A stretch of DNA of 64,000 bases from Acidobacteriota bacterium. GTDB lineage: Bacteria > Acidobacteriota > Terriglobia > Terriglobales > Acidobacteriaceae. The stretch lies in contig JABCZC010000009.1 in NCBI GenBank assembly GCA_013289875.1, positions 1 to 64,000 of the forward strand. The letters are read 5' to 3'. Position numbers and translations under genes: made by a program. The notes under the pieces are model-generated. The model worked only from the letters and a program-made list of their open reading frames with translations. It had not been told where the DNA came from and did no database searches. This document shows, piece by piece, positions 417 through 61,699 of the stretch (its first letter is position 1; each line of letters starts with the position of its first letter).

Positions 417-1063
417 GGTTTCACCAAACTCAGCACAGGTCTCTCCGCAAACCCATTCTGCGCAGCCGCTCTTGCGAAAGTGCAAGGGGACTAATCGCGC
501 CTTGTGTCCACGACGAGTGTGATCTTCGACTTTGCCCTGCCTCTCAAACCCGGCATGGCAGCCCGGTTGGTTCACGCATCCTGTATCGCGCTACAGACCG
601 AACAACGTGCTTCATGCTTCTGGAGAGCCTCGAGGACGATTCGGGCGAGCGTTCTCAGATATTCCCGATCCTCGCTTGACTGCGGATTGTTATCCGCGAT
701 GACAACCTTTCCAAAAGCGGCTTGGTGAGCCGTCCGCAGGGAAACGCCATGCCTGCAGTCACGCGCCATAATCTTGCCCCCAAATGTGGACACTGATGAT
801 GTAACACGAGGAGGGAACTTATGTTGTGCCGGCCGCGAAGTGCAGCTAAGTAAGAACGGAACCTCGTCCCATGGCTAGTCGTAGTGATCCGGCTCCAACT
901 AGCTCGGCCAAAGCGATCAGCACGGAGCCAACCGGACCCCTTTATCGGGTTGATTCCATTCCGGCGCGTCCACAATTTCGCGGTGAGATCGAAAACCTTG
1001 GAAATCTTAGAATTGGAAATCTTGGAAGAGGTTATCCAAAACGAGAGTTGGACGTGGCGAGCA
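417..1063. other. weakly coding or non-coding stretch
   Basis: Apart from the doubtful minus-strand frame at 572-769, I find no convincing gene here. Many short frames overlap on both strands and none shows a recognisable domain. One strong GGAGGG ribosome-binding site before the ATG at 821 leads into only ten codons. The stretch could be a decayed region. Confidence 0.4.
572..769 (-). CDS. possible small hypothetical protein
   Basis: A possible 65-residue protein on the minus strand that ends in a CSVC pair, with a plausible amphipathic helix just before it. The frame runs further upstream to a GTG at 793. The ATG at 769 is preceded by a G-rich stretch (GGGGGCAAG) that could act as a weak ribosome-binding site. 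I do not recognise the family. The surrounding DNA has several overlapping open frames and no clear coding signal, so this could equally be chance. Confidence 0.3.
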   Translation of the reverse strand: MARDCRHGVSLRTAHQAAFGKVVIADNNPQSSEDREYLRTLARIVLEALQKHEARCSVCSAIQDA

Positions 1064-1222
1064 CTATGGCGTCACGCTCTCTCCTCTGCAACTCGCATGT
1101 CCGCACTGGCACGTAATCTCCACTGATCCCTTCATCGCCTCGCAGTGGGCGCTGCAAAATTTCTCCTTATCCGGTGGTACACATGCACAAGCTGGGTTGC
1201 CGCATTTCCTTATTTTGTCCAT
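1064..1222 (-). CDS. bacterial metallothionein (SmtA/BmtA type)
   Basis: A 52-residue cysteine-rich protein that should bind Zn, Cd or Cu as a thiolate cluster in the cytoplasm. The layout is CGNPACAC, then a short linker, then FCSAHC, a second linker, and CQCGHASC. This gives eight cysteines and two histidines and matches prokaryotic metallothioneins such as SmtA (PF02069). The track frame starts at 1318, but an ideal AAAGGAGA site sits six bases before the ATG at 1222, so I take that start. No SmtB/ArsR-type repressor is adjacent. A terminator-like hairpin lies about 100 bases upstream on the same strand. The identification rests on cysteine spacing and size and is fairly secure. Confidence 0.85.
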   Translation of the reverse strand: MDKIRKCGNPACACVPPDKEKFCSAHCEAMKGSVEITCQCGHASCRGESVTP

Positions 1223-1321
1223 AAATTCTCCTTTATGCATCTCCTGTGCGTTTGACCCCGATGGCCCAGTTCCAAAGTAGGATGCGGATCGGCGCTGATC
1301 GGTAAGCACCTGCGCCATAAA

Positions 1322-1352
1322 AAGGCTGCCGAAGGCGACCGGCAGCCTTCTT
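1322..1352 (-). terminator. intrinsic-terminator-like hairpin upstream of metallothionein
   Basis: A 9-bp perfect stem (AAGGCTGCC / GGCAGCCTT) closes a 10-base loop. Read on the minus strand it is followed directly by a T run and then ATGG. No gene read leftward ends here, because the next gene (DUF1003) points the other way. It may be an attenuator in the metallothionein leader, the terminator of a lost gene, or a weak barrier between the two genes. Confidence 0.55.
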
Positions 1353-1410
1353 CAACGCGCCACTCGTCTGAGGCAGGCATCAAACCAATCGTTAAGACGG
1401 GATTAGGACA

Positions 1411-1917
1411 ATGTCTCAGAGCCATGTACAGGAACATATCGATCTAATTGCGAAGCACGAACAAGATTTCCTGGTAAGACGAACATTGGCGGAGAAACTT
1501 GGCGACTCCATAGCGGGTATCGCCGGAAGTCTTTCCTTCGTTTGTATTCATCTGTTCCTGTTCGCTGGCTGGATAATGATGAACACTTTTTCAGTCGCCC
1601 ACATCCGGCACTTTGATCCCAAGCCCTATTCGCTGCTTGGAACCCTGGTCGCGCTTGAAGCAATCCTGCTGGCAAGTATCATCCTCATGCGGCAGTCGCG
1701 TATGAGCCGACGTGCTGAGGAACGCGACCATCTGATGCTTCAGATCCTGCTCCTGACTGAGAGGGAAATTACCGCGGTTCTCGGCATGGAGCGACAGGTC
1801 GCGGGCAGAGTCGGCCTTAAGAAGATTGCCAATGATCGGGAGATTGAGCAGCTGAGTCAGCACACGTCCATCGACGATGTCGCACAAACCATCAAGGATA
1901 GCCTGCCTTCGGAATAG
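1411..1917 (+). CDS. DUF1003 family membrane protein
   Basis: A 168-residue inner-membrane protein of the DUF1003 family (PF06210). It has a soluble N-terminus, two transmembrane segments at about residues 40-60 and 70-90, and a long charged C-terminal part likely to form a helix or coiled coil. The region between the membrane segments (FDPKPYSLLGTLVALEAI) is typical of the family. The molecular role of the family is not established. The ATG is preceded by a TTAGGA site. It is divergent from the metallothionein and appears to stand alone. Confidence 0.85.
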   Translation: MSQSHVQEHIDLIAKHEQDFLVRRTLAEKLGDSIAGIAGSLSFVCIHLFLFAGWIMMNTFSVAHIRHFDPKPYSLLGTLVALEAILLASIILMRQSRMSRRAEERDHLMLQILLLTEREITAVLGMERQVAGRVGLKKIANDREIEQLSQHTSIDDVAQTIKDSLPSE

Positions 1918-2122
1918 TCAGATCTCGCTGCGCGCGCCTGCGGGAGAAGGCGGGACGACAATTCCCGGCACCTCACGAAATGCATCTCATCCTGTTGTCC
2001 TCAATCGAACCCGCATGCTCGGGCATGGCAGACTACATCGAATTCGTCTTGCAACACGCATTCCCCGCATGAGGTCGTCACTGATCACCCAGTCCACGAC
2101 GTGATATGCTCACCAGTCGTCT

Positions 2123-2551
2123 ATGACTATGACTACGCGCACCACGCCAATTCGTGTCCTTGTTGCCAAGCCCGGGCTCGACGGCCATGATCGCGGGGCC
2201 AAGGTGATTGCCCGGGCATTGCGCGACGCTGGAATGGAGGTCATCTACACCGGTCTGCGCCAGACGCCGGAGATGATCGTCAACGCCGCCTTGCAGGAAG
2301 ATGTGGACTGTGTAGGCCTGAGCATTCTTTCCGGCGCGCACAACGCCATCGTGCCCCGGGTGACTTCGATGCTGAAAGAGCGCGGTGCCTCGGACATCCT
2401 GGTCGTTCTCGGCGGAACCATCCCGCACCAGGACATCGACTTTCTCAAGGCACAGGGCGTAGCCGCGATCTTCGGCCCCGGAACCTCGCTCGACGCGACT
2501 GTGAAATTCATCCGCGAAAACGTCAAGCCTCGCGGCCTCGTCATCGCGTAA
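2123..2551 (+). CDS. stand-alone cobalamin (B12)-binding domain protein
   Basis: A 142-residue protein equal to the C-terminal B12-binding domain, or small subunit, of methylmalonyl-CoA-type mutases. The base-off/His-on motif is seen as DGHDRG at about residues 20-25, followed by the GLSILSGAH segment and the GGTIP loop that line the cobalamin tail. It should dock with a separate catalytic subunit and support a carbon-skeleton rearrangement such as methylmalonyl-CoA to succinyl-CoA. No large subunit or MeaB-type GTPase is nearby, so the substrate cannot be fixed from context. I saw no obvious cobalamin riboswitch upstream. Confidence 0.85.
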
Positions 2552-2566
2552 GCAACCCGTATAGAC

Positions 2567-2902
2567 TTACTGCCGCTCGAAGCTGTCCTTTGCCTGTTCC
2601 GCCGGAGGGGTTGCGGACCCATATTCAGCACCCTCACTCGACCGTGCATAGGCGCTATCGTAGGGCTGGTTGCCGTCCGCACCGGCGGCTGTGGGAGAAC
2701 CCGGAACCGGCGGTTGCCCTTCGCCGTTGCCCACATAGCTCGGATCCTGCTTGCCGGTCGTCGTCTCATCGGAAACGCTTGCCGCCAGGCTGTGCTGCTT
2801 GGTTGTCCGGCCAGTCTCGCATCCGGTCACCAGCAGCCCTGCAACTGCAGCAGCCAGACCCAATCCGGATACCTTCGCCATAAACTTCGTAGACACTCGC
2901 AC
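2567..2902 (-). CDS. small lipoprotein, hypothetical
   Basis: A 111-residue exported lipoprotein. The signal peptide has a basic start, a hydrophobic core (GLGLAAAVAGLLVTGC) and a lipobox cysteine. The mature part is hydrophilic, low in complexity and rich in Gly, Ser, Thr and Pro, and it looks disordered. I choose the GTG at 2902 because a GGAGGG site lies six bases upstream; the track start at 2926 places that site inside the frame. No domain is recognisable. It is divergent from the hydroxyproline genes and probably unrelated to them. Confidence 0.7.
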   Translation of the reverse strand: MRVSTKFMAKVSGLGLAAAVAGLLVTGCETGRTTKQHSLAASVSDETTTGKQDPSYVGNGEGQPPVPGSPTAAGADGNQPYDSAYARSSEGAEYGSATPPAEQAKDSFERQ

Positions 2903-3033
2903 TCTGATCCCTCCGGACAATCTCACAATAAAAAGAATTCAAAATGCCAATGTACCATTTCTGCGCGACCGGAGCCCCGAACCGGTCACACCTTTCAAAT
3001 CCAGCTCCGCAGCGATACTGTAGACATTACGAA

Positions 3034-3990
3034 ATGCCATCCAATACCGTCTTAGGCCGCGTTTCCATCCTCGACTCTCACACCGCCGGAGAGCCGACCC
3101 GCCTCGTCATCGATGGTGGACCCGATCTCGGCAGTGGGCCGCTCGCCGATCGCAGAGATCGCTTCCAGTGTCTGCATGATGATTTCCGCACAGCGATCGT
3201 CAATGAGCCGCGCGGTTCGGACGTAATCGTCGGCGCGCTCCTCTGCGATCCCGTCGATACCACCTGCGCCGCCGGTGTGATCTTCTTCAACAACGTCGGC
3301 TATATCGGCATGTGCGGCCATGGAACCATCGGGCTCATCGTCTCCCTCGCGCATCTCGGCAGAATCGGCCCTGGCATCCATCGCATTGAAACCCCCGTCG
3401 GAGTCGTCGCCGCCGCCCTGCATTCATCCGGCAAAGTCACGGTCGAAAACGTTCCCAGTTTTCGCGCCGGCGTTTCTGTCCCCGTCGACGTGCCGGGTCA
3501 CGGGCAAATCTACGGAGATATCGCCTGGGGCGGCAACTGGTTTTACCTGGTGGAAGAGCGCGGAAAAGTGCTGTCACTCGAAAACGTTGCCGAGCTGACG
3601 GAGTACACCTGGGCCATCCGGCAGGCTCTCGCTGCGCAAAGCATCACCGGACTGAACGGCAAGGAGATTGACCACATCGAACTCTTCAGTTCTTCGCCAG
3701 TCCCCGATGCTCACAGCACCAATTTCGTCTTGTGCCCTGGAAAAGCCTACGACCGCTCGCCCTGCGGCACCGGAACCAGCGCCAAGATGGCCTGCCTCTA
3801 CGCAGAAGGAAAACTTGCGCCCGGCGAAGTCTGGAGACAGGCAGGCATCCTCGGCACGGTCTTCGAAGGAAGCATCCGCGTGGACGGCGACAAAATCATC
3901 CCTAGCATAACTGGAACCGCATATGTAACTTCGGAAGCCACGCTCTTGCTCGACCCGAACGACCCCTTCTGTATGGGGATCCCGAAATGA
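3034..3990 (+). CDS. hypRE: 4-hydroxyproline 2-epimerase (proline racemase family)
   Basis: Interconverts trans-4-hydroxy-L-proline and cis-4-hydroxy-D-proline, the first step of hydroxyproline breakdown in the cytoplasm. This 318-residue protein has both catalytic cysteines of the family, in MCGHGTIG (about Cys94) and SPCGTGTSA (about Cys244). The two cysteines point to a racemase/epimerase rather than trans-3-hydroxyproline dehydratase, which has Ser or Thr at the first site. The track start at 2944 adds an unrelated N-terminus; the ATG at 3034 gives the normal family start ([15 protein letters not shown]). The next gene starts inside its stop codon by an ATGA overlap, so translation is probably coupled. 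The order epimerase, oxidase, deaminase makes 4-hydroxyproline the likely substrate rather than proline. The symbol follows Sinorhizobium usage. Confidence 0.9.
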
Positions 3991-5111
3991 GCACAGCTTA
4001 CGACGTCGTGATTCTCGGCGCGGGCATTGTCGGCGCGGCATGCGCTCTCGAATGCGCACGCGCCGGGATGACCGTTGCGGTGATCGAGAAGAATGCCGTC
4101 GCCAGCGGAGCGACGGGTGCGGCGATGGGCCACGTTGTCATCACGGATGACTCTCCGGCGCAGTTCGCACTCACAAAGTATTCGCAATCCCTCTGGGGCG
4201 CTCTGGCCCCGGAGCTGCCGCTCTCCGTCGAGTACTATCGCCCCGGAACCATCTGGATTGCCGCCGATGAAGAAGAAATGGCCGAGGCCCGGCGAAAATT
4301 CGATAACTTTACCGAACAAGGCGTTCCTTGCGAGACGCTCGACAGCGATGCACTTGCCGCTGCCGAGCCGAACCTGCGCCGCCCACTCACCGGTGGCCTT
4401 CTCGTGCCAAACGACGCCGTGGTTCACGCTCAAAGCGCGGCGGAATATCTCATGGCCGAGGCACGGAAGCTTGGAGCATCCCTCATCACAGGCCACGCGG
4501 TCACCAACGCATCGTATGGCCGCCTTTACCTCGACGACGGAACCATGCTGCCGACAGGCATCCTCATCAACGCTGCAGGAGCGTTTTCACCTGAACTAAC
4601 ACCGGGCATCCCGATCAGGAAACGCAAGGGCCATCTCATCCTCACCGATCGCTATCCGGGCTACGTGAACCATCAGCTCGTCGAGCTGGGCTATCTCAAG
4701 AGCGCGCACTCGTCGGACGGCGACTCTGTCGCCTTCAACATCCAGCCGCGAATCTCCGGGCAATTGCTTATCGGCTCATCGCGACAGTATGACGCAGACG
4801 AACCCGGTGTCGACCAACACATCCTTCGAGCCATGATGGATCGCGCCACGCTCTACATGCCCGGCTTGCCGTCCCTGACTGCTCTTCGGTCCTGGACCGG
4901 ATTTCGCGCCGCAACGCCTGACAAACTGCCGCTTATCGGACCAACCGAAGACCCGACCGTCTTCCTGGCTACCGGCCATGAAGGACTTGGCATCACGACT
5001 TCTCTGGGTACTGCGCGCCTGCTGGTCGACCATCTACTCGGGAGACGCACGGCGATCCCCATCGATCCCTATCTGCCTTCACGGATCAAAACCCTTCAGG
5101 AGACACGATGA
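3987..5111 (+). CDS. hypO: FAD-dependent D-hydroxyproline oxidase/dehydrogenase (DAO family)
   Basis: Expected to oxidise cis-4-hydroxy-D-proline to 1-pyrroline-4-hydroxy-2-carboxylate. This 374-residue protein begins with a classic dinucleotide-binding fold: [17 protein letters not shown] followed by an acidic residue in VIEK. It ends with the DAO-family FAD segment ([19 protein letters not shown]). It overlaps the epimerase by ATGA and the deaminase by ATGA, so the three genes form a tight operon. Whether it passes electrons to oxygen or to the respiratory chain cannot be seen here. On sequence alone it could be another D-amino acid or glycine oxidase; the function is taken from gene order. 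Confidence 0.85.
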
Positions 5112-11590: not shown

Positions 11591-12685
11591 ATGCGAAAGA
11601 CAAAATTCTGGCTGGTACTAACGTTCGCGGCTGTGGTTTCTGCCGCTCTGCCGGCAATGGCGCAGCAGACCGCCAAGATTCACGGACATGTACAGGATCC
11701 GGCCGGAGTTGCATTAAAAGGGGGCACCGTCAGCCTTTCTGATGACGGAGGTAAGACGAGCAGATACTCCTTCAAGACCGACGATAACGGAAACTACACC
11801 GGCGACGGTATTGCTCCCGGCACCTACAGCATTATTTATCGCAATGCCGATACCCCCCCGGACAAGATTGTGGATGAGTTCAACGAGGTCAAAATTGCGG
11901 CCGGCGCCGACATAACCCAGGACTTCGACATGTCCCGCCCCGAATACCTTTCGAAATTGTCGCCTGAACAAAAGAAAGCTCTTGAGGACATTAAGGCGAA
12001 GAATGCGGAAGTGCTCAAGGAGAATTCCCAGATCAAGAACCTGAACGCTGACCTCATAAAGGCCCGTCAGGACAACAAAGATAAGAACTATACCGAGGCC
12101 GAATCCCTGATGACCCGGGACACGCAGGCCAAGCCCGACGCCGGCGTGTTGTGGGTAGAGCTTGGCGTCGCCCAAAAGGGCCTCAAGAAATACGACGACG
12201 CAGTCACCTCGCTCAAGAAGGCCGTCGAGCTCGAAGCCGCCAGCAAGAAGCCCAATCCCGAAATTCAGGCTGCCGCGAACGATGCCCTCGGTGAGGTCTA
12301 CGCCACCCAGGGCAAGGTGCCCGAGGCCCAGGCCGCCTATGACGCGGCCGTCCAGGCCGATCCCAAGGGCGCAGCGGTGCACTACACCAACGAGGCCATT
12401 ATGATGGACCGCGCCAATCAGATCGACGCGACCGTCGCCGCTGCCGACAAGGCAATTGCCGCCGACCCCACAAAGGCCATCGCCTACTATCTGAAGGGCA
12501 AGGCGCTCATCAATAAAGCCTCCGTCGATCCCAAGACTGGGAAAATCGTCGCTCCTCCAGGTTGCGCCGAAGCCTACCAGAAATATCTCCAGCTCGCCCC
12601 CGACGGTCAATTCTCTGCTGACGCCAAGGCGGTCCTCGCCGAAATGAGCACCACGGTCACCAGTAGCTACAAGGGCAAGAAGTAG
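11591..12685 (+). CDS. exported carboxypeptidase-regulatory-like/TPR protein
   Basis: A 364-residue exported protein. A signal peptide (MRKTKFWLVLTFAAVVSAALPAMA) is followed by a beta-sandwich carboxypeptidase-regulatory-like domain (about residues 28-115; HGHVQDPAGVALKGGTVSL). Next is a charged helical region (about 120-160), then tetratricopeptide-like repeats (about 165-350) seen in AESLMTRDTQAKPDAGVLW and YDDAVTSLKKAVELEA. TPR proteins of this build usually act as scaffolds for protein complexes at the periplasmic side; the partner is not evident. An AGGGAG site lies nine bases before the ATG. It follows queC but probably has its own promoter, and a hairpin follows its stop. Confidence 0.8.
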   Translation: MRKTKFWLVLTFAAVVSAALPAMAQQTAKIHGHVQDPAGVALKGGTVSLSDDGGKTSRYSFKTDDNGNYTGDGIAPGTYSIIYRNADTPPDKIVDEFNEVKIAAGADITQDFDMSRPEYLSKLSPEQKKALEDIKAKNAEVLKENSQIKNLNADLIKARQDNKDKNYTEAESLMTRDTQAKPDAGVLWVELGVAQKGLKKYDDAVTSLKKAVELEAASKKPNPEIQAAANDALGEVYATQGKVPEAQAAYDAAVQADPKGAAVHYTNEAIMMDRANQIDATVAAADKAIAADPTKAIAYYLKGKALINKASVDPKTGKIVAPPGCAEAYQKYLQLAPDGQFSADAKAVLAEMSTTVTSSYKGKK

Positions 12686-12705
12686 TCCCCATCAACACAC
12701 TGCAA

Positions 12706-12740
12706 GGGCGTCGTCTCCCAGACGGCGCCCATTGCCTTTT
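12706..12740 (+). terminator. probable intrinsic terminator
   Basis: A 9-bp stem with one G-U pair (GGGCGTCGT / ACGGCGCCC) and a 7-base loop, followed by ATTGCCTTTT. It lies 20 bases after the stop of the TPR gene and just before the GTG start of moeA, so it probably ends the upstream transcript. Confidence 0.6.
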
Positions 12741-12756
12741 AGCTACAATCGGCTCT

Positions 12757-14019
12757 GTGGAACCCGCTTCGGCTTCGCCCTCTTCCCCTTCGATCGTGCT
12801 GGGCTACAGTGACGCCGCACGCACCGTGCGCGAACAGGCCACCTCCTCCGACGAGCGCCCGCGCGGCACGGAATCTCTCACCCTGCTCGACAGTCTCAGC
12901 CGCATCCTCGCTGCGCCGGTCCTCGCCGACCGTGACCAGCCGCCCTTTCCCCGCTCCACCCGCGACGGATTCGCTTGCCGCTCTGCTGATCTGGCCTCTG
13001 GAGATACCCTACAAATCGTGGGCCAGCTCCGCGCTGGCGAAGTCTGGACCGGCCCCGCGCTCGAACCAGGGCGGGCCATTGAGATCATGACTGGAGCACC
13101 CGTGCCCGCCGGGGCCGATTGCGTCCTGATGGTCGAACACGCTGCGGTTGATGCGAGCAGCATCAGGACAACACGGCAGCTCACCGCGGGCGAAAATGTC
13201 GTCCCCGCCGGAGCCGAAGCACAGGCTGGAGCCACACTCGTCCTAACCGGAACGCGTATCGGCCCGCAGCAGATCGCCGCCGCTGCCGCATGCGGATATG
13301 CAAGCCTGCCCGTCCACACCCGTCCGCGCGTTGCCATCTTGGCTACCGGTGACGAACTCGTTCCCGTGGCCGGCCAACCGCTGCCGCACCAGATTCGTAA
13401 CTCCAACAGTTACTCAATCGCTGCCCAGGTTCTTCAGCATGGCGGCAAACCCGTTCTGCGACCGACCGTGCGCGACAACGTGGCCGCAATCGAATCAGCA
13501 ATTGAGGAAGCCCTCACCTCCGACCTGCTTATCCTGTCCGGCGGAGTCTCCATGGGCAAATACGACTTTGTCGAACAGGCGCTGCTCAACCTTAACGCCG
13601 AATTTTTCTTCACCGGAGTTCGCATGCAACCTGGCCGCCCGGTTGTCTTCGGACGACTGCCCGCCGGTGATGGCTACCGCTATTTCTTTGGACTCCCGGG
13701 CAATCCCGTGTCCACTATGGTCACCTTCGCGCTCTTCGCGGGGCCGCTCATCGGCGCGCTCGCGGGACAAGCCAGCGATCAGCTTGGACCCCGCTTTGTC
13801 GAAGCGCATCTCGCCAGGGACCTGCAGGCGAAACCCGGCCTTACGCAATTCCTTCCCGCGCGAATCGAGAGCGACAGCACCAAAGCCACCGTTCGCCCCA
13901 TCGCATGGCAAGGCTCCGGCGATCAGGCCGCCGCATCGAAGGCAAACTGTTTCCTGGTCGTGCCCGAGCAGGTCGAAAAGCTATCCTTCGGTAGCACCGT
14001 TACAGTGTTTCCGTTTTAA
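12757..14019 (+). CDS. moeA: MoeA, molybdopterin molybdenumtransferase
   Basis: Inserts molybdate into adenylated molybdopterin in the last step of molybdenum cofactor synthesis. This 420-residue protein shows the MoeA order: an N-terminal domain with RSTRDGFACRSADL, then an MPT-binding domain with LATGDELV and LILSGGVSMGKYDFVEQ, then a C-terminal beta domain. The start is a GTG at 12757. The first 30 or so residues are Ser/Pro rich and not conserved in the family, so a later start is conceivable. moaC follows after about 90 bases, so cofactor genes are clustered here. Confidence 0.93.
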   Translation: MEPASASPSSPSIVLGYSDAARTVREQATSSDERPRGTESLTLLDSLSRILAAPVLADRDQPPFPRSTRDGFACRSADLASGDTLQIVGQLRAGEVWTGPALEPGRAIEIMTGAPVPAGADCVLMVEHAAVDASSIRTTRQLTAGENVVPAGAEAQAGATLVLTGTRIGPQQIAAAAACGYASLPVHTRPRVAILATGDELVPVAGQPLPHQIRNSNSYSIAAQVLQHGGKPVLRPTVRDNVAAIESAIEEALTSDLLILSGGVSMGKYDFVEQALLNLNAEFFFTGVRMQPGRPVVFGRLPAGDGYRYFFGLPGNPVSTMVTFALFAGPLIGALAGQASDQLGPRFVEAHLARDLQAKPGLTQFLPARIESDSTKATVRPIAWQGSGDQAAASKANCFLVVPEQVEKLSFGSTVTVFPF

Positions 14020-14112
14020 CGAAACCGGTGGGTCAGTCAGGCCATTTTAGCCCAGAGTATACGTACGCCCTACGCGCTACACCCAAACCCCTACACCCTG
14101 TACCCTATTCCT

Positions 14113-14577
14113 ATGTCCCGGCTTTCGCATTACGACAACGAAGGACAGGCGCACATGGTCGATGTGAGCGAGAAACCCGCCACGCGCCGCGAAGCGCATG
14201 CCTATGCTTTGGTTACACTCTCAGTAGACGTTCTCAACGAACTGCCGCGAAATCCAAAGGGCAATCCCCTTGAAGTTGCCCGCTTCGCCGGAATCCAGGC
14301 CGCCAAACGGACCGCCGACCTGATCCCGATGTGCCATCCCCTGCCGCTGACTTTTGTCGATGTGAAGACCACGATTATCGACGGCGGCATCGAGATTCGC
14401 ACCGTGGCCGCCACCACCGCGGGCACAGGGGTTGAAATGGAGGCGCTCATCGCCGCCTCGATCGCAGCTCTGACCATCTATGACATGTGCAAGGCGCTCG
14501 ACAAGGCCATCGTCATCCGCGAAATACGCCTCGAACGCAAAACCGGTGGCAAAAGCGGAGATTATGTTAGGAGTTAG
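14113..14577 (+). CDS. moaC: MoaC, cyclic pyranopterin monophosphate synthase
   Basis: Works after MoaA to form cyclic pyranopterin monophosphate, the first stable intermediate of the molybdenum cofactor. At 154 residues it has the normal length. Key motifs are present: AKRTADLIPMCHPLPLT around residues 58-75, TGVEMEALIAAS, and TIYDMCKALDK near the C-terminus with the catalytic aspartate and lysine. It lies downstream of moeA in the same direction. The following gene is convergent. Confidence 0.96.
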   Translation: MSRLSHYDNEGQAHMVDVSEKPATRREAHAYALVTLSVDVLNELPRNPKGNPLEVARFAGIQAAKRTADLIPMCHPLPLTFVDVKTTIIDGGIEIRTVAATTAGTGVEMEALIAASIAALTIYDMCKALDKAIVIREIRLERKTGGKSGDYVRS

Positions 14578-14620: not shown

Positions 14621-15607
14621 CTACACCGCTGTCGCCAGATACACCCCGAACCACTCACGCTCATCCGTCCAGCACTGGGTGATGGCGAACCCTGCGCGCT
14701 CCAGCATCGACAAGACGCCCTGCCCTGTGAATTTGTAACTGTTCTCGGTATGAATTGTCTCGCCGCGCCCGAACTTCACTTCCATCTCAAGTGCTCCAAT
14801 CGACACATGCTGCGCAATCAGGCTCTCCAGGTGCATCTCGATCCGCGAATGCTCGTGGTTCCACCGAGCCCGATGCTGAAACAATCTCGGATTGAAATTC
14901 GCGCCCAGCTCGCGATTGATCCGCTTCAGCACATTCTTATTGAAGGACGCCGTCACGCCTGCTTCATCGTCATAGGCGCGCACCAGCACCGATCGCTCTT
15001 TCACTCGGTCAACGCCAAGCAGTAGCCGGTCTCCAGGCGAGAGGTGCGCTCGCACATCGCGCAACAACGTCTCCGCGTGGGCGGGCTCGAAGTTCCCGAT
15101 ACTCGATCCGATATAAAGCACCATCTTCCGCTTACCGTCTCCGGGAAAATCCGCGACGCCGGTCGTGTAATCGGCGACTCTGGGAGTAACAATCACACCG
15201 GGAATTTCTCTTTCAATGCGTTCCTTCGCCGCAGTCAGAGGACTTTCCGAGACATCGATCGCCAGGTAATCGACGTCCCCCTGCCTGCGGACCGCGGCTT
15301 CGAGCAGCAGCCCGGTCTTCGTGGCCGTGCCCGCGCCCAGCTCAATCATTGTCAGCGCCTGGCCCGACGGCCCGCCAGCCACGCCCAGAATCTCGTCCGC
15401 ATTGTTTGCAAAAATGGTCCGCTCCGTGCGGGTCAGGTAATACTCCGGAAGCTCGGTGATCGCCTCAAAGAGCCGTGATCCTTCTTCATCGTAGAAAAGC
15501 CAGGGTGAAAGTGTCTTCGGCCGCGCTGTTAAACCCGCAAAAACCTCAGCGCCGACCGGAGTCTGCGCCGCTTCCGGCAGCGTGAGAATCGAGGAAAGAC
15601 TGTGCAT
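14621..15607 (-). CDS. egtD: EgtD, L-histidine N-alpha-trimethyltransferase
   Basis: Trimethylates histidine to hercynine with SAM, the first step of ergothioneine synthesis. The 328-residue protein has the family SAM-binding motif IELGAGTATKT at about residues 85-95. It also has the family segments RTERTIFANNADEI and GSSIGNF, and an acidic/aromatic C-terminal domain that holds histidine. I use the ATG at 15607; the track frame extends 56 residues upstream into the egtB 3' end without family character. It is the second gene after egtB with a gap of 38 bases, so one operon is likely. The pairing makes the assignment firm. Confidence 0.92.
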   Translation of the reverse strand: MHSLSSILTLPEAAQTPVGAEVFAGLTARPKTLSPWLFYDEEGSRLFEAITELPEYYLTRTERTIFANNADEILGVAGGPSGQALTMIELGAGTATKTGLLLEAAVRRQGDVDYLAIDVSESPLTAAKERIEREIPGVIVTPRVADYTTGVADFPGDGKRKMVLYIGSSIGNFEPAHAETLLRDVRAHLSPGDRLLLGVDRVKERSVLVRAYDDEAGVTASFNKNVLKRINRELGANFNPRLFQHRARWNHEHSRIEMHLESLIAQHVSIGALEMEVKFGRGETIHTENSYKFTGQGVLSMLERAGFAITQCWTDEREWFGVYLATAV

Positions 15608-15645
15608 AGGGGATCCGGGTGCTCCTAAAAAATGTTGGAAACAAG

Positions 15646-16917
15646 CTAGCGATTCGCCAAACGCATACCGCAAAACTGCCACCGAGTCGCGGACGAGAAA
15701 AAATTCCGGTACGTACTCCGAATATGAGATGCAGGTGTCACGGCCGAACCACCTCGCAGCACCATCTGATTGCACATGAATTTGCCGTTATACTCGCCCA
15801 GCGCGCCCGGCAAAGCCGCAAAGCCGGGATAGCCAAGATACGCGCTGGCCGTCCACTCCCACACATCTCCAAACATTTGCTGCAGACCGCCCTGTTCCCC
15901 GGCCGCCGCCGGATGCAGCAGACCCGACTCAAGCAGATTACCCTCGACAGGCAGCACCGCAGCGGCAACCTCCCATTCCGCCTCCGTCGGCAGCCGCTTC
16001 CCTGCCCAGCGTGCAAAGGCGTCCGCCTCGAAATAGCTCACGTGGCAAACCGGCGTATTCAGAAGCGCCTTCAGCCCCGCCGCTCCGCGCATCGTAAACA
16101 CCCGCCACTCGTCCTCCGCCTGAAACCAGTACAGCGGGGCCCTCCACTGCTGCGCTGTGACCGTGTCCCATCCATCGGACAGCCACAGTTCCGGCCGCTC
16201 GTATCCTCCATCGCGCATGAAGTCAAGATACTCGCCGCACGTCACCAACCGCGAAGCCAGCTCGAACGGCTCCAGGTAAACCTTGTGGCGCGGCTGCTCA
16301 TTGTCGAAGCAGAATCCTTCCCCGCGGTAGCCGATTTCCGCCAGCCCGCCCTGATGGCCTACCCAGATCAGTTCGCCTGCCTTAGATGCGGGCAGTTCCC
16401 CCGTTTCGTATGCCGGATGCATAGGATTCGACCAGAAAGCGTTCTTCATGTCGTAGGCCAGCAGTTCCTGATGCTGCTGTTCGTGATGAAGACCCAGCAC
16501 CACCCGCCGCTCCGCCTCGGACGGCATGCCGCTGTCGATCAACCGCACCATTGCTGTCTCAACATGGCGGCGATACTCCAGGATCTCCGCCAGCGAAGGC
16601 CGGGAAAACGAGCCGCGTAGTTTCTTCAGCGGCTGGTCGGAAACCGCGTTGTAGTAGCTATTGAAAAGCCAGATGAAATCGGGATGAAAAGGGCGGTAGC
16701 CAGCCAGAAACTCCGACAGAAGAAAGGTTTCGAAGAACCACGTCGTATGCGCCAGATGCCATTTGGCTGGGCTGGCTTCCGGACACGACTGCACCATCAT
16801 GTCCTCCGGGGTCAGCGGCTCGCAGAGCTCTTCCGTCTGCTGCCGCACACTACAAAACCTGGGTCCTAACTCCGTGTCCCGTCCCGCGGACCGGTCCAAC
16901 CCGCTGAGAGTACCCAT
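15646..16917 (-). CDS. egtB: EgtB, hercynine sulfoxide synthase (non-haem iron)
   Basis: Joins hercynine to a thiol substrate with oxygen to give the sulfoxide precursor of ergothioneine. The 423-residue protein has an N-terminal DinB-like helical domain that supplies iron ligands. These are His54 (WHLAHT) and His145/His149 in HHEQQHQE. A C-terminal FGE-sulfatase-like domain follows (RLPTEAEWEVAA, GDVWEWTASAY, VLRGGS). Adjacent tyrosines in LFNSYYN (88-89) resemble those I recall for the type II EgtB of Chloracidobacterium, which uses cysteine directly. That would fit the absence of egtA and egtC here. A GAGGAGGAGG site precedes the ATG. It is first in an operon with egtD. Confidence 0.92.
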   Translation of the reverse strand: MGTLSGLDRSAGRDTELGPRFCSVRQQTEELCEPLTPEDMMVQSCPEASPAKWHLAHTTWFFETFLLSEFLAGYRPFHPDFIWLFNSYYNAVSDQPLKKLRGSFSRPSLAEILEYRRHVETAMVRLIDSGMPSEAERRVVLGLHHEQQHQELLAYDMKNAFWSNPMHPAYETGELPASKAGELIWVGHQGGLAEIGYRGEGFCFDNEQPRHKVYLEPFELASRLVTCGEYLDFMRDGGYERPELWLSDGWDTVTAQQWRAPLYWFQAEDEWRVFTMRGAAGLKALLNTPVCHVSYFEADAFARWAGKRLPTEAEWEVAAAVLPVEGNLLESGLLHPAAAGEQGGLQQMFGDVWEWTASAYLGYPGFAALPGALGEYNGKFMCNQMVLRGGSAVTPASHIRSTYRNFFSSATRWQFCGMRLANR

Positions 16918-17150: not shown

Positions 17151-17939
17151 ATGAAATCTTTGCTGCTCGTATTCGTCCTAATCCTCGCCTCGGCTATCTT
17201 TTTGCCCTCCGCTGGCGGACAGGATGCGTCTGCGACGCCGGAGCCTCAAGGCCAGGGGCAAGGCATGGGCGGAGCCTTCGTGGATCATGGTGTCCGTGGG
17301 ACCGTCACGGCGGTCACTGGCGGCAACATCTCGGTCAAAACCGAGCAGGGCGACGTTTACAAGATCGAAACCGGATCCAATACACGCTTCCGCAAGCAGC
17401 GTGATCGCCGCCAGGCCGGGTCCACCGGAACGGCCGATACAAGCTCTGAGAATGCTCAGGTCAAGATCTCGGACATCCACGTCGGCGACATGATTATGGC
17501 TGCCGGCGACAAGGACGACAAAGCCAAAACCGTCGGTGCCGTGATCGTCATGATCATCGACAAGGAGCAGTACGAGAAGGCTCGTGCTGACTTCGGCAAA
17601 ACCTGGACCACCGGCGCGATTCAATCCATCAACGAGACGAAAATCACCATCAAGCGTCCCGACAACGTCATTCAGACCATCATCGTCGACGAAAACACCT
17701 CCTTCCGCAAGCGGCGCGACAGCATCACACTGGCAGACATCAAGGTTGGCGACAACGTAAGCGCCCGAGGCGCACTCCAGAACGGAAGCTTCGTCGCCAC
17801 CGTACTAAGTGTTGGCGGACCCGGCCAGGGAGGCGGACCCGGAGGTGGTCCAGGCGGCTTCGGCGGTGGCGGAGGCAGCCAGAGCGTCACCGGCCCTCAA
17901 CCCGCTAACTCCACGAGCCCTGCCCCGCCGAACCGCTAG
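17151..17939 (+). CDS. secreted DUF5666-type protein with Gly-rich tail
   Basis: A 262-residue exported protein. The signal peptide (MKSLLLVFVLILASAIFLPSAGG) is followed by two copies of a small beta-barrel unit like DUF5666. These are seen in RGTVTAVTGGNISVKTEQGD and TGAIQSINETKITIKRP, each leading into a matching NTRFRKQRD / NTSFRKRRD segment. The C-terminus is a Gly/Pro-rich tail (GGGPGGGPGGFGGGGG). I prefer the ATG at 17151 over the TTG at 17130. The next gene, a TonB-dependent receptor, begins 13 bases after the stop and has a similar Gly-rich tract, which suggests a shared surface location. The biochemical role is unknown. Confidence 0.75.
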   Translation: MKSLLLVFVLILASAIFLPSAGGQDASATPEPQGQGQGMGGAFVDHGVRGTVTAVTGGNISVKTEQGDVYKIETGSNTRFRKQRDRRQAGSTGTADTSSENAQVKISDIHVGDMIMAAGDKDDKAKTVGAVIVMIIDKEQYEKARADFGKTWTTGAIQSINETKITIKRPDNVIQTIIVDENTSFRKRRDSITLADIKVGDNVSARGALQNGSFVATVLSVGGPGQGGGPGGGPGGFGGGGGSQSVTGPQPANSTSPAPPNR

Positions 17940-17952
17940 CTTTCGCACTCTT

Positions 17953-20900
17953 ATGACGCGCCGTCGCATCTCGATCTCGCTTCTGCTGGCCGTGTCGCAA
18001 CTCACCGCGCCGGTCTTTAGCCGCGCCCAGCAGCCCGCCGCGCCCGTTCCAACGCAGCAACCTGCCGCAGCCACGACAGCCCCGCAATCCGGAGCGATCT
18101 TACAGGCGGGCGGCACCATCCATGGCACCGTCAAGTCTGGAACCATTCCCCTCCCTGGCGTAAGCATCACCGCCACCAATACCCTCACTGGGAAAAAATA
18201 TTCGAGCGCCAGCGATGCCCGCGGCAACTACAGCATGACCATTCCGCAGAATGGCCGCTACGTTCTGCGAACCGAACTCGCTGCCTTCGCCCCCACTACC
18301 CAGGAAGCGCTGCTTAATGCCACGTCTCGCGACCAGAAGATCGATTTCACTCTCACCCTCGCCTCGCGCGCCGTCCAGGAAGAGCAGCAGCAGGCCGCTT
18401 CGACGCGTCAATACTCCGGCCGCGGGACACAGAGCCTGTCCCTGGCCGATGCCGCCACTGGTTTGATCGCAGCTGCCGGTGGAGACTCATCCACCGCAAC
18501 CACCGCTCTTCCCTCGCTTGCGTCGAATCCCGACGTCTCCAGCGAATCTGTCGCTGTCGCCGGCCAAAACGGCTCCACCAATCCTTTCGCCGGAATCAAC
18601 TTCGGCGACGGACCGCCGCCCCCGGGCGCTGCCGACGCAAGCTATGGCGGACCCGGAGGAGGCGGCCCAGGTGGCGGAGCTCCAGGTGGCGGAGGTCCAG
18701 GTGGTGCCGGCGGAGGGGGTGGCGGTGGCTTCGGTGGAGGAGGCGGTTTTGGAGGTGGCGGGGGCGGCGGACGCGGCTTTGGTGGCCGCGGCAACTTCCG
18801 CAATTTCAACCCAAATCAGCCCCACGGCGCTTTCTTCTGGAACGGTGGCAACTCCGCCCTCAACGCCCAGCCGTACGCACTGCGCGGCCAACCCCTCGCC
18901 CAGCCCAGCTACGCCTCCAACCGCTTCGGACTCACCTTCATTGGCGCGCCCTACATCCCGCACCTGATCACGCATGACACAAAGGACTTTATTTTCTTCA
19001 CCCTCTCCGGCCAGCGGTCGTCATCGCCCTTCGACGAGTACGGAACCGTGCCCCTGGCTGCCGAGCGCATGGGGAACTTTCAGGATCTGACCACGCCCGA
19101 GGGTACGCCTATCACTATTTACGATCCCGGCTGCTACCCCGGCGACCCCAACAAGGGCAAGCCCTTCCCGCAGAACACCGTCCCTGCACAATGCATCTCT
19201 CCGCAAGCCACAGCTCTGCTGAATTACATCCCCCCGGCCAATTTGCCCGGTGCGTCTCAGAACTACCGCCGCCTGGCCACTGCCCAGACCAACACCACCA
19301 CCATCGGGGCGCGTCTGATTCACAACTTCGGAGCGGGCGGAAACAACGCCGCCCTCGGCAACTTCGTCCGCCAGCGACTCGGCCAGGGCGGCAGCCCCGG
19401 TCTGCACCAGAACATCAATTTCAACTTCAACTACAGCCACACAGCTTCCGACAGCCTCAACCTCTTCCCCGACCTCGGAGGCGCCACCCAGAGCACCCAG
19501 TACTCCCTCCAGGCTGGATACTCGCTGAGCAAGGGCCACCTCGCCAACAGCCTGAACGTCAACTGGAACCGGACGAATTCCCAGACGCGCAACTATTTCA
19601 CGAACACAACCGACGTCGCCGGCCAGATCGGCCTCAACGGACTCCCCACCAATCCACTCCTCTACGGCCTGCCCGATATCACTCTCAACCAGTTCACCAG
19701 CCTTGGCGAGGTGCAGCCAGCCTTCCAGATCAACCAGACCATTTCGCTCTCTGAGTCTCTTTCCTGGATTCACAAGAAGCACAACGTCCGAGTGGGCGGC
19801 GACTACCGCCGCGTGCACCTCGACATGGTTGGCCTGACCAACTCCACCGGGAGCTACACCTTCACCGGCGTCTACACCGAGGCGCCCGGAACTAGCTCGA
19901 GCGCTCCTGGCGGAACCTCGACCTCCGGCTCCTCCCTTGCCGACATGCTCCTCGGCTTCCCCCAGCAGACCAGCCTGCAGGCGCCATACCAAAAGGCCTA
20001 CCTCCGCGAAAATGTCATCGACGCGTACGCTCAGGACGACTGGCGGGCGCTGCCCAATCTGACCATCAACGCCGGCCTGCGCTATGAATACTTCTCGCCT
20101 TATTCGGAAAAGAACAATCGTCTCGCCACACTGGACACCGGCCTCGATTACACCCTGGCCACGACCGTCCTGCCCAACACCGACGGACCCTACACCGGGT
20201 ACTATCCGAACACTCTGGTCTACCCCGAAAAGAATGATTTCTCCCCGCGCATCGGCATCGCCTGGCACCCGATCAAGGACACCGTCGTCCGAGCCGGGTA
20301 TGGCATTAACTTCGCCATCGGCCAGTACGTGAAATTCGTGCAGGACTTCGCCTTCCAGCCGCCGTGGGCCAACGTCCAGACCAACAGCAACGAGCTCACC
20401 GGCCTGCCCACCTACACTCTCGTCAATGGCTTCACCGCAACGCCCCCCTCGGAAGGCAACTACTCGGTCAACAAGAATTACCGCCTGCCCTACGTGCAGG
20501 TCTGGAACCTCGACGTTCAACGAACACTCCCCATGGGCATCGTCCTCAACGTTGGCTACAACGGCTCGAAGGGCACACGGTTAGACATCGTCGACGCCCC
20601 GGGCCGTTTCGGCACCAGTGTGCCGAACGTTCTTTACGACTACGAGAACGATGTGGCCTTCTCCAACTTCAATGCCCTCGCCGTGCGCCTGCGCAAGCGC
20701 ATGCAGAACGGCGTCGCCCTCGGCGCGACCTATACTTACTCCCACTCCATCGACGACGCCAGCTCCATTGGCGGCAACGGAGGAACTGGCGTCACCGTCG
20801 CCCAGAACTGGCAGGATCTGCTCGCCGAAGAATCGAACTCCAGCTTCGACATCCGCCAGCAGCTCAAAGGCGACTTCGTCTATGAGCTTCCCTTCGGCCC

Positions 20901-21396
20901 CGACACCCACCTGCTCACCAGCGGTAATTTTCTCTCGCACGCTGTCAGCGGTCTGTCAGTATCCGGCACCTTCGATTTCGCCACCGGATCGCCGCTCACT
21001 CCACATTACGAAGCTGCTATCGCCGACGTCGCCCGCGGCAGTACAGGCTCTCTGCGCCCCAACCGCGTGCCTGGTGTCTCTTTGACGGCGGGTGGAGGCT
21101 CGCTCGACAACTGGTTTAACAAGGCGGCCTTTGAAAATCCGCCGAGCGACGGTTACGGAACTGCTTCGCGCTTCTCGATTCCCGGCCCCGGAACCGTCTC
21201 GGTCAACATGTCGCTTTCGAAAACCCACCGCTTCTCGGAAATGCGCACGTTCGAAGTCCGGGCCACTGCCAGCAACGTCTTCAACACCGTCCAGTATTCG
21301 GGCGTCGACACCACACTCGGCTCCGCAACCTACGGCGAGGTGATTTCGGCCGCCAGCATGCGGCAGTTCACCTTCCTGGCTCGCTTTCGCTATTAA
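17953..21396 (+). CDS. TonB-dependent receptor with carboxypeptidase-regulatory-like domain (Oar-like)
   Basis: A very large outer-membrane beta-barrel (1147 residues) of the acidobacterial Oar-like kind. In order it has a signal peptide (RRRISISLLLAVSQLTAPVFS), a Pro/Ala/Gln-rich stretch, and a carboxypeptidase-regulatory-like domain (about residues 55-135; GTVKSGTIPLPGVSITATNT). A long glycine-rich tract follows (about 230-280), then plug- and barrel-like sequence rich in Asn, Tyr and Ser to the end. The last residues (FLARFRY) carry the C-terminal aromatic typical of outer-membrane barrels. The track start at 17809 lies in the previous gene; the ATG at 17953 begins the signal peptide. Uptake of a plant-derived oligomer is possible, but the substrate is not readable. 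Confidence 0.88.
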   Translation: MTRRRISISLLLAVSQLTAPVFSRAQQPAAPVPTQQPAAATTAPQSGAILQAGGTIHGTVKSGTIPLPGVSITATNTLTGKKYSSASDARGNYSMTIPQNGRYVLRTELAAFAPTTQEALLNATSRDQKIDFTLTLASRAVQEEQQQAASTRQYSGRGTQSLSLADAATGLIAAAGGDSSTATTALPSLASNPDVSSESVAVAGQNGSTNPFAGINFGDGPPPPGAADASYGGPGGGGPGGGAPGGGGPGGAGGGGGGGFGGGGGFGGGGGGGRGFGGRGNFRNFNPNQPHGAFFWNGGNSALNAQPYALRGQPLAQPSYASNRFGLTFIGAPYIPHLITHDTKDFIFFTLSGQRSSSPFDEYGTVPLAAERMGNFQDLTTPEGTPITIYDPGCYPGDPNKGKPFPQNTVPAQCISPQATALLNYIPPANLPGASQNYRRLATAQTNTTTIGARLIHNFGAGGNNAALGNFVRQRLGQGGSPGLHQNINFNFNYSHTASDSLNLFPDLGGATQSTQYSLQAGYSLSKGHLANSLNVNWNRTNSQTRNYFTNTTDVAGQIGLNGLPTNPLLYGLPDITLNQFTSLGEVQPAFQINQTISLSESLSWIHKKHNVRVGGDYRRVHLDMVGLTNSTGSYTFTGVYTEAPGTSSSAPGGTSTSGSSLADMLLGFPQQTSLQAPYQKAYLRENVIDAYAQDDWRALPNLTINAGLRYEYFSPYSEKNNRLATLDTGLDYTLATTVLPNTDGPYTGYYPNTLVYPEKNDFSPRIGIAWHPIKDTVVRAGYGINFAIGQYVKFVQDFAFQPPWANVQTNSNELTGLPTYTLVNGFTATPPSEGNYSVNKNYRLPYVQVWNLDVQRTLPMGIVLNVGYNGSKGTRLDIVDAPGRFGTSVPNVLYDYENDVAFSNFNALAVRLRKRMQNGVALGATYTYSHSIDDASSIGGNGGTGVTVAQNWQDLLAEESNSSFDIRQQLKGDFVYELPFGPDTHLLTSGNFLSHAVSGLSVSGTFDFATGSPLTPHYEAAIADVARGSTGSLRPNRVPGVSLTAGGGSLDNWFNKAAFENPPSDGYGTASRFSIPGPGTVSVNMSLSKTHRFSEMRTFEVRATASNVFNTVQYSGVDTTLGSATYGEVISAASMRQFTFLARFRY

Positions 21397-21408
21397 GGAG
21401 ACTCGAAC

Positions 21409-23640
21409 ATGACAAGCCGTCTCCAGACCCTCACCCTCGCAGCAGCCATCGCGTTCGCTGTCGTCCCCGGGCTCTTCGCCCAGCAGCCCCCGGCCCAGCA
21501 ATCGGCTCCCCTGCAATCAATAGACCAGCAGCAGCAGCCCAGCCAGTCGTCATTCTCGCTGAAGATCAACAGCGACATAGTGCTCACCAATGTCGTTGTG
21601 CGCGACAAGAAGACGGGCGAAGTCGTTCGCGGACTCACCGCCAAAGACTTCACCATCCTCGAAAACGGTAAGGCGCAACAGCTTTCCAGCTTCGATTTTG
21701 AAAGCGTCGACCAGGCCGCTCCGCTCAACGAAGCCACCATCACCGGACAGTCCGGCACCAGCATCTTCAACGCCAAAAACGGCGTTGCCAAACCCGAAGA
21801 GCTCCGCAACCACCGCCTCATCGTGATGTTCTTCGACATCACCTCCATGCAGCCCGAGGACCTCGATCGCTCGCAGAAAGCCGCCCGCAACTACATCAAC
21901 CGCCAGATGCAGCCCGCCGACCTGGTCGCCGTCGTCTCGCTTGATACTTCTCTGTCACTCGACCAGGACTTCACCCAGAACAAGCAGCTCTTGCTCGCCG
22001 CCGTTAATTCCTACTCCGGCGATCAAAGCTCTGGCTTTCAGGCCGGAGCCACCAGCACTACCAACCAGGTCGAGGACACTACCTCCTTCACCGCCGACGA
22101 GCAGGAGTACAACGACCTCAACACCGACCGCGAACTCTTCGCCATTGCGTCTGTCTCCAAATCGCTCGCCTACATCACCGAAAAGAAATCCATGCTCTAC
22201 TTCTCCGGCGGAATCCAGCGTGATGGCATCGAGAATCAGGCGTCATTGCGCTCCGCCATCAACGCCGCCGTGCGCGCCAACTTATCCATCTACAGTGTCG
22301 ATACGCGTGGCCTGCAGGCCATCTCGCCGCTCGGTGACGCCACCACCGGCAGCCTGCGCGGCACCTCCGGATACAACGGCGCGGCCCTCCAGAACAATCT
22401 CGACGCCAACTTCAACACCCAGGAAGTCATGGCCACACTCTCGTCGGACACCGGCGGCAAGGCCTTCTTCGACTCGAACGACTTCTCACCGGCCTTCGAA
22501 CGCATCCAGCATGACACCTCGGCCTACTACGTCCTCGGTTTCCGCTCCACGGATACGAGAAGAGACGGCCGCTATCGCAAGCTCACCGTTAAGATCAACC
22601 GAGCTGACGTGAAGCTCGAATACCGCCCCGGCTACTACGCCCCAGCCGACTACCAGCACTCCACACACGAAGATCGCGAGCGTCAGCTCGAAGACCAACT
22701 CGCCAGCGACCTGCCCGCAACCGACGTAGCCGTCTACATGGAGACGCTCTACTTCCGCACTGACGACACGCACTATTACGTCCCCGTCTCCATCGTCGTG
22801 CCCGGCTCGCAGATTCCCTTCGTCAAGGGCGGAGACAAGGACAAAGCCACTCTCGACATCATCGGCCAGGTCAAAGATCTGCAGGGTCACTCGATCGGTC
22901 AGGCGCGCGAGACCGTGAAGCTCTCCATCGACCAGGCCCAGCAGGTCCGCCAGAAAAACGTGCAGTACTCCACCGGATTCACTCTTCCCATTGGCAAGTT
23001 CCATCTCAAATTTGTCGTGCGCGAAAACGAAACCGGCCGCATGGGTTCCTTCGAGACCGACATCAATGTCCCCGACCAGCGCAAAATCCCTCTCAAGATG
23101 AGTTCCATCGTCCTCGCCAGCCAGCGCATCCCGGCTGCGAAGCATGCCGACAGCCCCCTCGTCCATGATGGTGAGCAGCTTGTTCCCAACCTGCCGCACG
23201 TCTTCCGCCAGGACCAGCACCTTTACTTCCTATACGAGGTTTACGCCCCCTCGCACGCCACGCCGGCTGCTGATCCCGCGGCCAAAGACCAGAAGCCCGC
23301 GGCAAAAGGCCCCAATGCACCCGTCCGCGTCCTCACCAGCATTGAATTCCTGAACGGAAGCACCAAAGCCTTCGAAACTCCGCTTGTCGAAGCCAAAGCC
23401 CTCAACGTGCCTGCGCGCGATGCCGTCGCCTTCCAGTTCGACGTGCCCCTCACCAGCCTCAAGCCGGGTCTATATACGTGCCAGGTGAACGTGATCGACG
23501 ACGCCGGAGGCAGCTTCAGCTTCCCCCGCACCGCCGTGCTGATTCGCGAGGCCGCGCAGGCGACCACTCCGCCCTCGACCCCAACATCACCCAGTTCGCC
23601 TGCGCCCGCCGCAGGCAGCCCCGCTGCACCCGGGCGGTAG
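21409..23640 (+). CDS. secreted VWFA-related protein (acidobacterial type)
   Basis: A 743-residue exported protein carrying the VWFA-related domain known from Acidobacteria (TIGR03436 type). After a signal peptide (LQTLTLAAAIAFAVVPGLFA) and a Gln/Pro-rich linker comes an Ig-like segment (INSDIVLTNVVVRDKKTG). The VWA-like fold follows at about residues 130-340; FFDITSMQPEDL occupies the metal-site position but lacks a full DxSxS. Downstream are beta-rich domains and a Pro/Ser/Thr-rich tail. A GGAG site lies eight bases before the ATG. The gene starts 12 bases after the receptor, so the three genes from 17151 are probably one operon. Function in this phylum is undescribed beyond the domain name. 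Confidence 0.85.
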   Translation: MTSRLQTLTLAAAIAFAVVPGLFAQQPPAQQSAPLQSIDQQQQPSQSSFSLKINSDIVLTNVVVRDKKTGEVVRGLTAKDFTILENGKAQQLSSFDFESVDQAAPLNEATITGQSGTSIFNAKNGVAKPEELRNHRLIVMFFDITSMQPEDLDRSQKAARNYINRQMQPADLVAVVSLDTSLSLDQDFTQNKQLLLAAVNSYSGDQSSGFQAGATSTTNQVEDTTSFTADEQEYNDLNTDRELFAIASVSKSLAYITEKKSMLYFSGGIQRDGIENQASLRSAINAAVRANLSIYSVDTRGLQAISPLGDATTGSLRGTSGYNGAALQNNLDANFNTQEVMATLSSDTGGKAFFDSNDFSPAFERIQHDTSAYYVLGFRSTDTRRDGRYRKLTVKINRADVKLEYRPGYYAPADYQHSTHEDRERQLEDQLASDLPATDVAVYMETLYFRTDDTHYYVPVSIVVPGSQIPFVKGGDKDKATLDIIGQVKDLQGHSIGQARETVKLSIDQAQQVRQKNVQYSTGFTLPIGKFHLKFVVRENETGRMGSFETDINVPDQRKIPLKMSSIVLASQRIPAAKHADSPLVHDGEQLVPNLPHVFRQDQHLYFLYEVYAPSHATPAADPAAKDQKPAAKGPNAPVRVLTSIEFLNGSTKAFETPLVEAKALNVPARDAVAFQFDVPLTSLKPGLYTCQVNVIDDAGGSFSFPRTAVLIREAAQATTPPSTPTSPSSPAPAAGSPAAPGR

Positions 23641-61401: not shown

Positions 61402-61699
61402 GCTCGTTTCCCTATAGGCGGATTTGCCAGCATCGCCTTTGGGGGGGAACTACGCAAAATCGGGACCAACGGTTCCCGACCTGGTAGTGGAGCGCCAGCG
61501 ACGCCGATGAAGTTCACACGGCGAATTCAACCCTAATGATATCAGGCTGACAGTGAAATTCAGTCGATCGGCGGTTTTGTTTCGGACGTCACAGAGAAAG
61601 ACGCGATGGTCCGGATGGTTCAAGAATGCAACAGAACGCTTGTATCTGACGTTACGAGTCCGTAAAATCAGAGAGCTGTATAGGAGCAGTAAGCGGCGT

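Follow-up and report, generated by a model that had tools for sequence, protein, structure and literature searches.

Three genes for exported proteins are arranged in one direction

The window, i.e. the whole stretch of 64,000 nucleotides that was analyzed, belongs to a draft genome that has members of Silvibacterium as close relatives. On its forward strand three genes follow one another directly. The first (positions 17151–17939) is an accessory gene and encodes an exported double-DUF5666 protein of 262 amino acids (PF18914, E = 4e-11). The sequence reads 13 bases (17940–17952) from its end to the start of the second gene (17953–21396), which encodes an Oar-family outer-membrane barrel of 1147 amino acids that is devoid of a plug (PF25183, E = 3e-163). 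After a further gap of 12 bases (21397–21408), in which a GGAG ribosome-binding-like site can be read, the third gene (21409–23640) encodes the partner of the Oar protein, an exported protein of 743 amino acids with a VWA domain and tandem Ig-like domains (TIGR03436, E = 9.5e-71), which is called VWFA here. By eye, the N-termini of all three proteins look like Sec signal peptides, and start codons were chosen with a simple signal-peptide score. Both gaps were scanned for terminator-like sites on the forward strand, and none was found in either of them.

A first-pass annotation of this DNA had described three exported, co-directional proteins of the DUF5666, Oar-type barrel and VWFA families, separated by 13 and 12 bases. 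The open reading frames and the sequence confirmed the arrangement, and the matches to PF18914, PF25183 and TIGR03436 confirmed the families. It had also been proposed that the genes form one operon and one envelope module. This is strongly supported by the conserved order, strand and short gaps in relatives, and also by the co-occurrence of the DUF5666 gene with the Oar-VWFA pair and the existence of a second, paralogous module that parallels the first (see below).

Upstream of the three genes, egtD- and egtB-like genes for ergothioneine synthesis are read in the opposite direction (14621–16917, reverse strand), and they are neighbors in many relatives. The divergent egtB/egtD genes and an upstream VIT-family gene were considered as parts of the module and were rejected; the VIT-family gene reflects neighborhood synteny only, and the same is probably true for egtB/egtD.

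The Oar and VWFA genes form a conserved pair

In all 126 loci that hold both genes, the two are encoded on the same strand, with the Oar-type barrel gene immediately preceding the VWFA gene, and the distance was below 600 bases in 123 of them (median gap 17 bases); most of these loci belong to one phylum and many to one family, and a few share a genome or stem from nearly identical ones, so that the counts are not independent. When loci were fetched via the VWFA protein, an Oar-family gene with the same orientation was found directly 5′ of it in every case in which the contig extended far enough, and the adjacency was also seen in other families and classes. In a sample of 119 genomes, which covers the phylum evenly, the strongest matches to VWFA (18 above 430 bits) and to Oar (18 above 850 bits) were the identical 18 adjacent places, and the next-best matches reached 329 bits for VWFA and 562 bits for Oar. 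The draft genome itself contains 19 VWFA matches and 43 Oar matches, and outside of the module no VWFA gene adjoins any Oar gene. Because it is conserved across relatives, the adjacency is far beyond chance. Whether the three families are neighbors in related genomes had been named as a check of the original proposal; the search was performed, and the adjacency was found.

The phylogenetic trees of the two proteins were congruent. Their distances correlated with a coefficient of 0.92, a value that is inflated by the relatedness of the genomes, so that more weight was given to the duplicated pair described below, and 30 of the 49 well-supported splits of the Oar tree were also present in the VWFA tree. 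Among the best 80 loci of one scan of a genome collection, only a single one (L081) carried a label from outside the Acidobacteriota. It is situated on a contig labelled Verrucomicrobia, has a typical Acidobacteriaceae module with 59% identity, and probably represents a mislabelled metagenome-assembled genome (MAG).

Several genomes contain a second Oar-VWFA pair (type B), which is about 35% identical to the first pair (type A) and in which the two genes are again adjacent. The second pairs are separated from the first pairs in both trees. In all eight type B loci examined (L155, L156, L157, L158, L142, L201, L202 and L203) proteins with a DUF3738 domain are encoded upstream of the pair. In L202 and L158 the DUF3738 domain is part of a fusion with an M56 peptidase of the BlaR1 type, which suggests a linked regulator.

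The DUF5666 gene is a lineage-restricted third member

In most Acidobacteriaceae loci the DUF5666 gene is located directly upstream of the Oar gene. Its co-occurrence with the pair was analyzed in the draft genome and 36 relatives of the same family, 20 of them with and 17 without the pair. An orthologous DUF5666 gene was present in 18 of the 20 genomes with the pair (adjacent in 17) and in none of the 17 genomes without it (Fisher p = 1e-8, uncorrected for relatedness). A clade that includes MAGs labelled Terracidiphilus has the pair and no adjacent DUF5666 gene. In L026 the DUF5666 gene is found a few kilobases beyond the 3′ end of the VWFA gene; it is encoded on the opposite strand and has a gene for a secreted TPR protein as its neighbor. 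In more distant genomes, a protein with a single DUF5666 domain precedes Oar (L141 and L144), or a double DUF5666 gene is divergent from Oar (L138). DUF5666 is thus a lineage-restricted third member of the module. Because of this restriction, and because DUF3738 proteins occur instead in the second type, the Oar-VWFA pair is the core of the module, and the exported protein encoded in front of it is an accessory that can be exchanged.

The first-pass annotation had recognized two DUF5666 domains. The second one is strong in Pfam (PF18914 at residues 154–217, 43.5 bits compared with a gathering score of 27), while the first copy is weak but can be seen in the alignment, so that Pfam strongly detects just one domain. 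The shared Gly-rich tracts that had been noted in the DUF5666 and Oar proteins are indeed present in both; they are conserved only in Oar, whereas the C-terminus of the DUF5666 protein varies, and, judged from the alignments, no conserved link between the two proteins can be derived from them. With DUF5666 and CusF-like small proteins the module protein has in common a PF18914 match above the cut-off and a weak similarity to CusF, and it differs from them by its two tandem copies and its constant position in front of a plugless Oar. Metal binding was considered in view of the resemblance to CusF and was rejected; the match was below the threshold, and no conserved pattern of metal ligands was seen by eye.

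A gene for a secreted TPR protein was found 3′ of the VWFA gene in more than 20 loci of Edaphobacter/Granulicella-type genomes. It was rejected as a fourth core gene, since its relatives sit away from the pair in most genomes. The TPR gene of L026 mentioned above (12592–14249, reverse strand) is one example of the linkage of TPR genes to DUF5666 or VWFA genes in some lineages.

The Oar barrel has lost the plug and the TonB box

The defining feature of TonB-dependent transporters is a plug by which the barrel is gated, and transporters of the Oar type have the order CarboxypepD_reg domain, TonB box, plug and barrel. The module Oar consists of an N-terminal CarboxypepD_reg extension (residues 55–135, positions 18115–18357; PF13620, E = 7.2e-12; pLDDT 86–92), a low-complexity linker and a barrel that starts at about residue 288, with the PF25183 match spanning residues 288–1138. 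The linker (residues 144–283, positions 18382–18801) takes the place of the TonB box and the plug and is predicted to be disordered, with a pLDDT below 50 throughout. In the AlphaFold model residues 51–135 and about 285–1147 are ordered, residues 144–283 are unstructured, and no plug is visible. The best Foldseek matches of the barrel are TonB-dependent transporters (E = 8e-22). Among the features of the Oar subclass of these transporters, the 22-strand-type barrel and the CarboxypepD_reg extension were thus found, and the plug and the TonB box were not.

The Pfam family PF07715 finds only two of six known plugs and misses many true Oar plugs. Because it is too insensitive for the Oar family, a family-specific plug model was built from paralogues, first from those of the draft genome. 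This model detected 34 of the 37 other Oar-family genes of the draft genome at E < 1e-5 and two more weakly, and the one remaining miss is a marginal family match of 18.8 bits. The module Oar of the draft genome gave no match to the model, unlike every other long Oar-family gene of that genome, and none of 109 module Oars in related loci matched it. Without filters, the best E-value for a plug in the module Oars was 0.1, and a profile-profile comparison of the linker with the plug gave a probability of 0.2%. A TonB-box-like pattern, which is loosely defined, was present in 1 of 97 module Oars versus all eight full-length paralogues. The designation of the protein as a TonB receptor in the first-pass annotation therefore did not hold, as TonB box and plug were absent in the searches, the profile comparison and the AlphaFold model.

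Within the linker a motif around ESVAVAGQNGSTN is conserved (residues 197–209, positions 18541–18579; alignment A1), in which Gly204 is invariant (65 of 65 sequences). The motif may descend from the V-x-G segment of the plug. The linker is rich in glycine at about residues 224–283, and this richness is conserved in type A Oars. The type B linker is not conserved in this respect and is mostly shorter (84–121 residues in L155, L156, L157 and L161).

Three genomes that do not belong to the close relatives (L195:4005-7661, L196:7882-11541 and L197:5897-9661) encode plugless Oars that have another N-terminal region of about 270 amino acids and have kept the VWFA neighbor. The region replaces the CarboxypepD_reg domain and did not match any Pfam family; a LolA-like nature, which had been guessed from the sequence, was dropped, as neither Pfam nor a sequence search of the PDB returned a match. 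In L135 a second Oar-like open reading frame (944–4168) lies directly upstream of the module Oar and has no match to the plug model; it could be a further Oar without a plug or one that has diverged.

The partner protein combines a VWA domain with Ig-like domains

The acidobacterial VWFA model TIGR03436 matches residues 51–412 of the partner protein with 238.9 bits, compared with a curated cut-off of 81.25. The AlphaFold model (mean pLDDT 80) shows a VWA fold that is followed by beta-sandwiches at about residues 440–713, and the best Foldseek matches are tandem Fn3/Ig proteins, which are generic at that TM-score. Asp143 of the VWA fold is invariant. Instead of the canonical MIDAS motif DxSxS, the protein has D-x-[T/S]-x-[M/L] at residues 143–147, without the last serine. 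No lipobox was found in the 743-residue protein of the window, and a lipobox-like pattern occurred in 4 of 67 VWFA N-termini.

The VWFA domain is common to the module members and other TIGR03436 proteins. In contrast to the latter, the module proteins have about 300 additional C-terminal residues, which form the Ig-like domains, and they are fixed to a plugless Oar, whereas the other TIGR03436 proteins of the draft genome are not beside any Oar. Elsewhere in the window, the C-terminal half of a GWxTD-domain protein (61553–63415, forward strand) resembles the C-terminal region of the VWFA proteins of the module (match at about 1e-12), and the Ig-like part may thus be a module that both have in common.

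A putative Ton-independent export or display device

The components belong to known families, and the barrel is without the two defining features of TonB-dependent transporters. The pair, which a small helper gene frequently precedes, has the look of a device for export or display at the cell surface that has not been described so far. In a collection of open-access papers no description of the module was found, and searches there for DUF5666, for acidobacterial VWFA together with TonB and for plugless TonB transporters gave nothing on it. SusC/SusD also combines a TonB-family barrel with a dedicated, co-encoded exported partner, a comparison that concerns the way of working only; SusC has retained both plug and TonB box, and the protein with which it pairs is a lipoprotein; neither is true of the module pair. 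The Oar of Myxococcus xanthus shares with the module Oars the CarboxypepD_reg extension and the 22-strand-type PF25183/TonB-receptor barrel. It has a plug with a TonB box that is needed for function, whereas the module Oars are without both and, unlike the M. xanthus protein, have a fixed VWFA neighbor.

An export role is plausible because the M. xanthus Oar is required for the secretion of PopC (PMC6434023). Without its plug, that Oar accumulates poorly and PopC is not secreted (PMC6434023), and therefore a plugless Oar cannot simply be an open exporter. Something else must take over the role of the plug, for which both the linker motif and the partner are candidates. Because an Oar is needed for the export of PopC and because the loss of the plug is tied to one dedicated partner, the reading that we judge most likely, albeit at somewhat less than even chances, is a conserved acidobacterial surface device in which a Ton-independent barrel exports and/or displays the VWA-Ig protein. 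The barrel would not depend on TonB and would serve as both conduit and anchor in the outer membrane; at rest, the flexible linker, which contains the conserved motif, and/or the partner would fill its lumen. The VWA-Ig protein would pass through the barrel or dock in it and would be kept at the surface, where its VWA domain could bind a ligand, and DUF5666 might be a periplasmic assembly or binding helper. With equal reserve, we propose an undescribed outer-membrane translocation system of the Acidobacteriota, with a plugless Ton-independent barrel, a VWA-Ig protein as cargo or gate, the exchangeable accessories DUF5666 and DUF3738, and two paralogous types. Several points count against export or display: the VWA-Ig fold is bulky for a barrel of 35–40 Å, export would proceed without a recognized energy source, and VWFA proteins of the same length exist without a neighboring Oar.

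The loss of plug and TonB box and the gain of an obligate partner in a large natural clade provide a clean case for studying how barrels are sealed, energized and reused. The module also allows one to ask whether export of the Oar type, as in M. xanthus, has a Ton-independent form, and it offers a testable function for three abundant, unexplained acidobacterial families (VWFA, DUF5666 and DUF3738) in a major soil phylum.

The coincidence of plug loss with one obligate partner gene could also mean that VWFA itself is the missing plug or lid, which closes the barrel in trans from the periplasm or the surface and opens for the import of large substrates. Elsewhere, barrels are closed by SusD-type lids or separate plug proteins, the receptor-type barrel has been retained, and the motif remaining in the linker could bind the partner. 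Yet import needs energy and the TonB box is absent, and we are not aware of a VWA protein with a gating role in any barrel. We regard such a gate as unlikely, with roughly one chance in a few.

A little less probable still is a static adhesion scaffold, in which the barrel would be an anchor with large loops, filled by the linker, that holds VWFA as an adhesin without any transport. The adhesin-like VWA-Ig architecture, the disordered Gly-rich filler and the missing TonB box fit such a scaffold, but a full transporter-type barrel would be costly as a mere anchor, for which a lipoprotein would suffice.

An ordinary TonB-dependent Oar with a plug too diverged to detect, next to unrelated secreted proteins by inherited synteny, would agree with the dozens of Oars and VWFAs present in Acidobacteria and with the many true plugs missed by PF07715, but it is very improbable, because the sensitive family-specific model finds the plug in all long paralogues and in no module Oar, neither AlphaFold nor the profile comparison reveals one, and the adjacency of the pair holds across classes despite differing surrounding genes.
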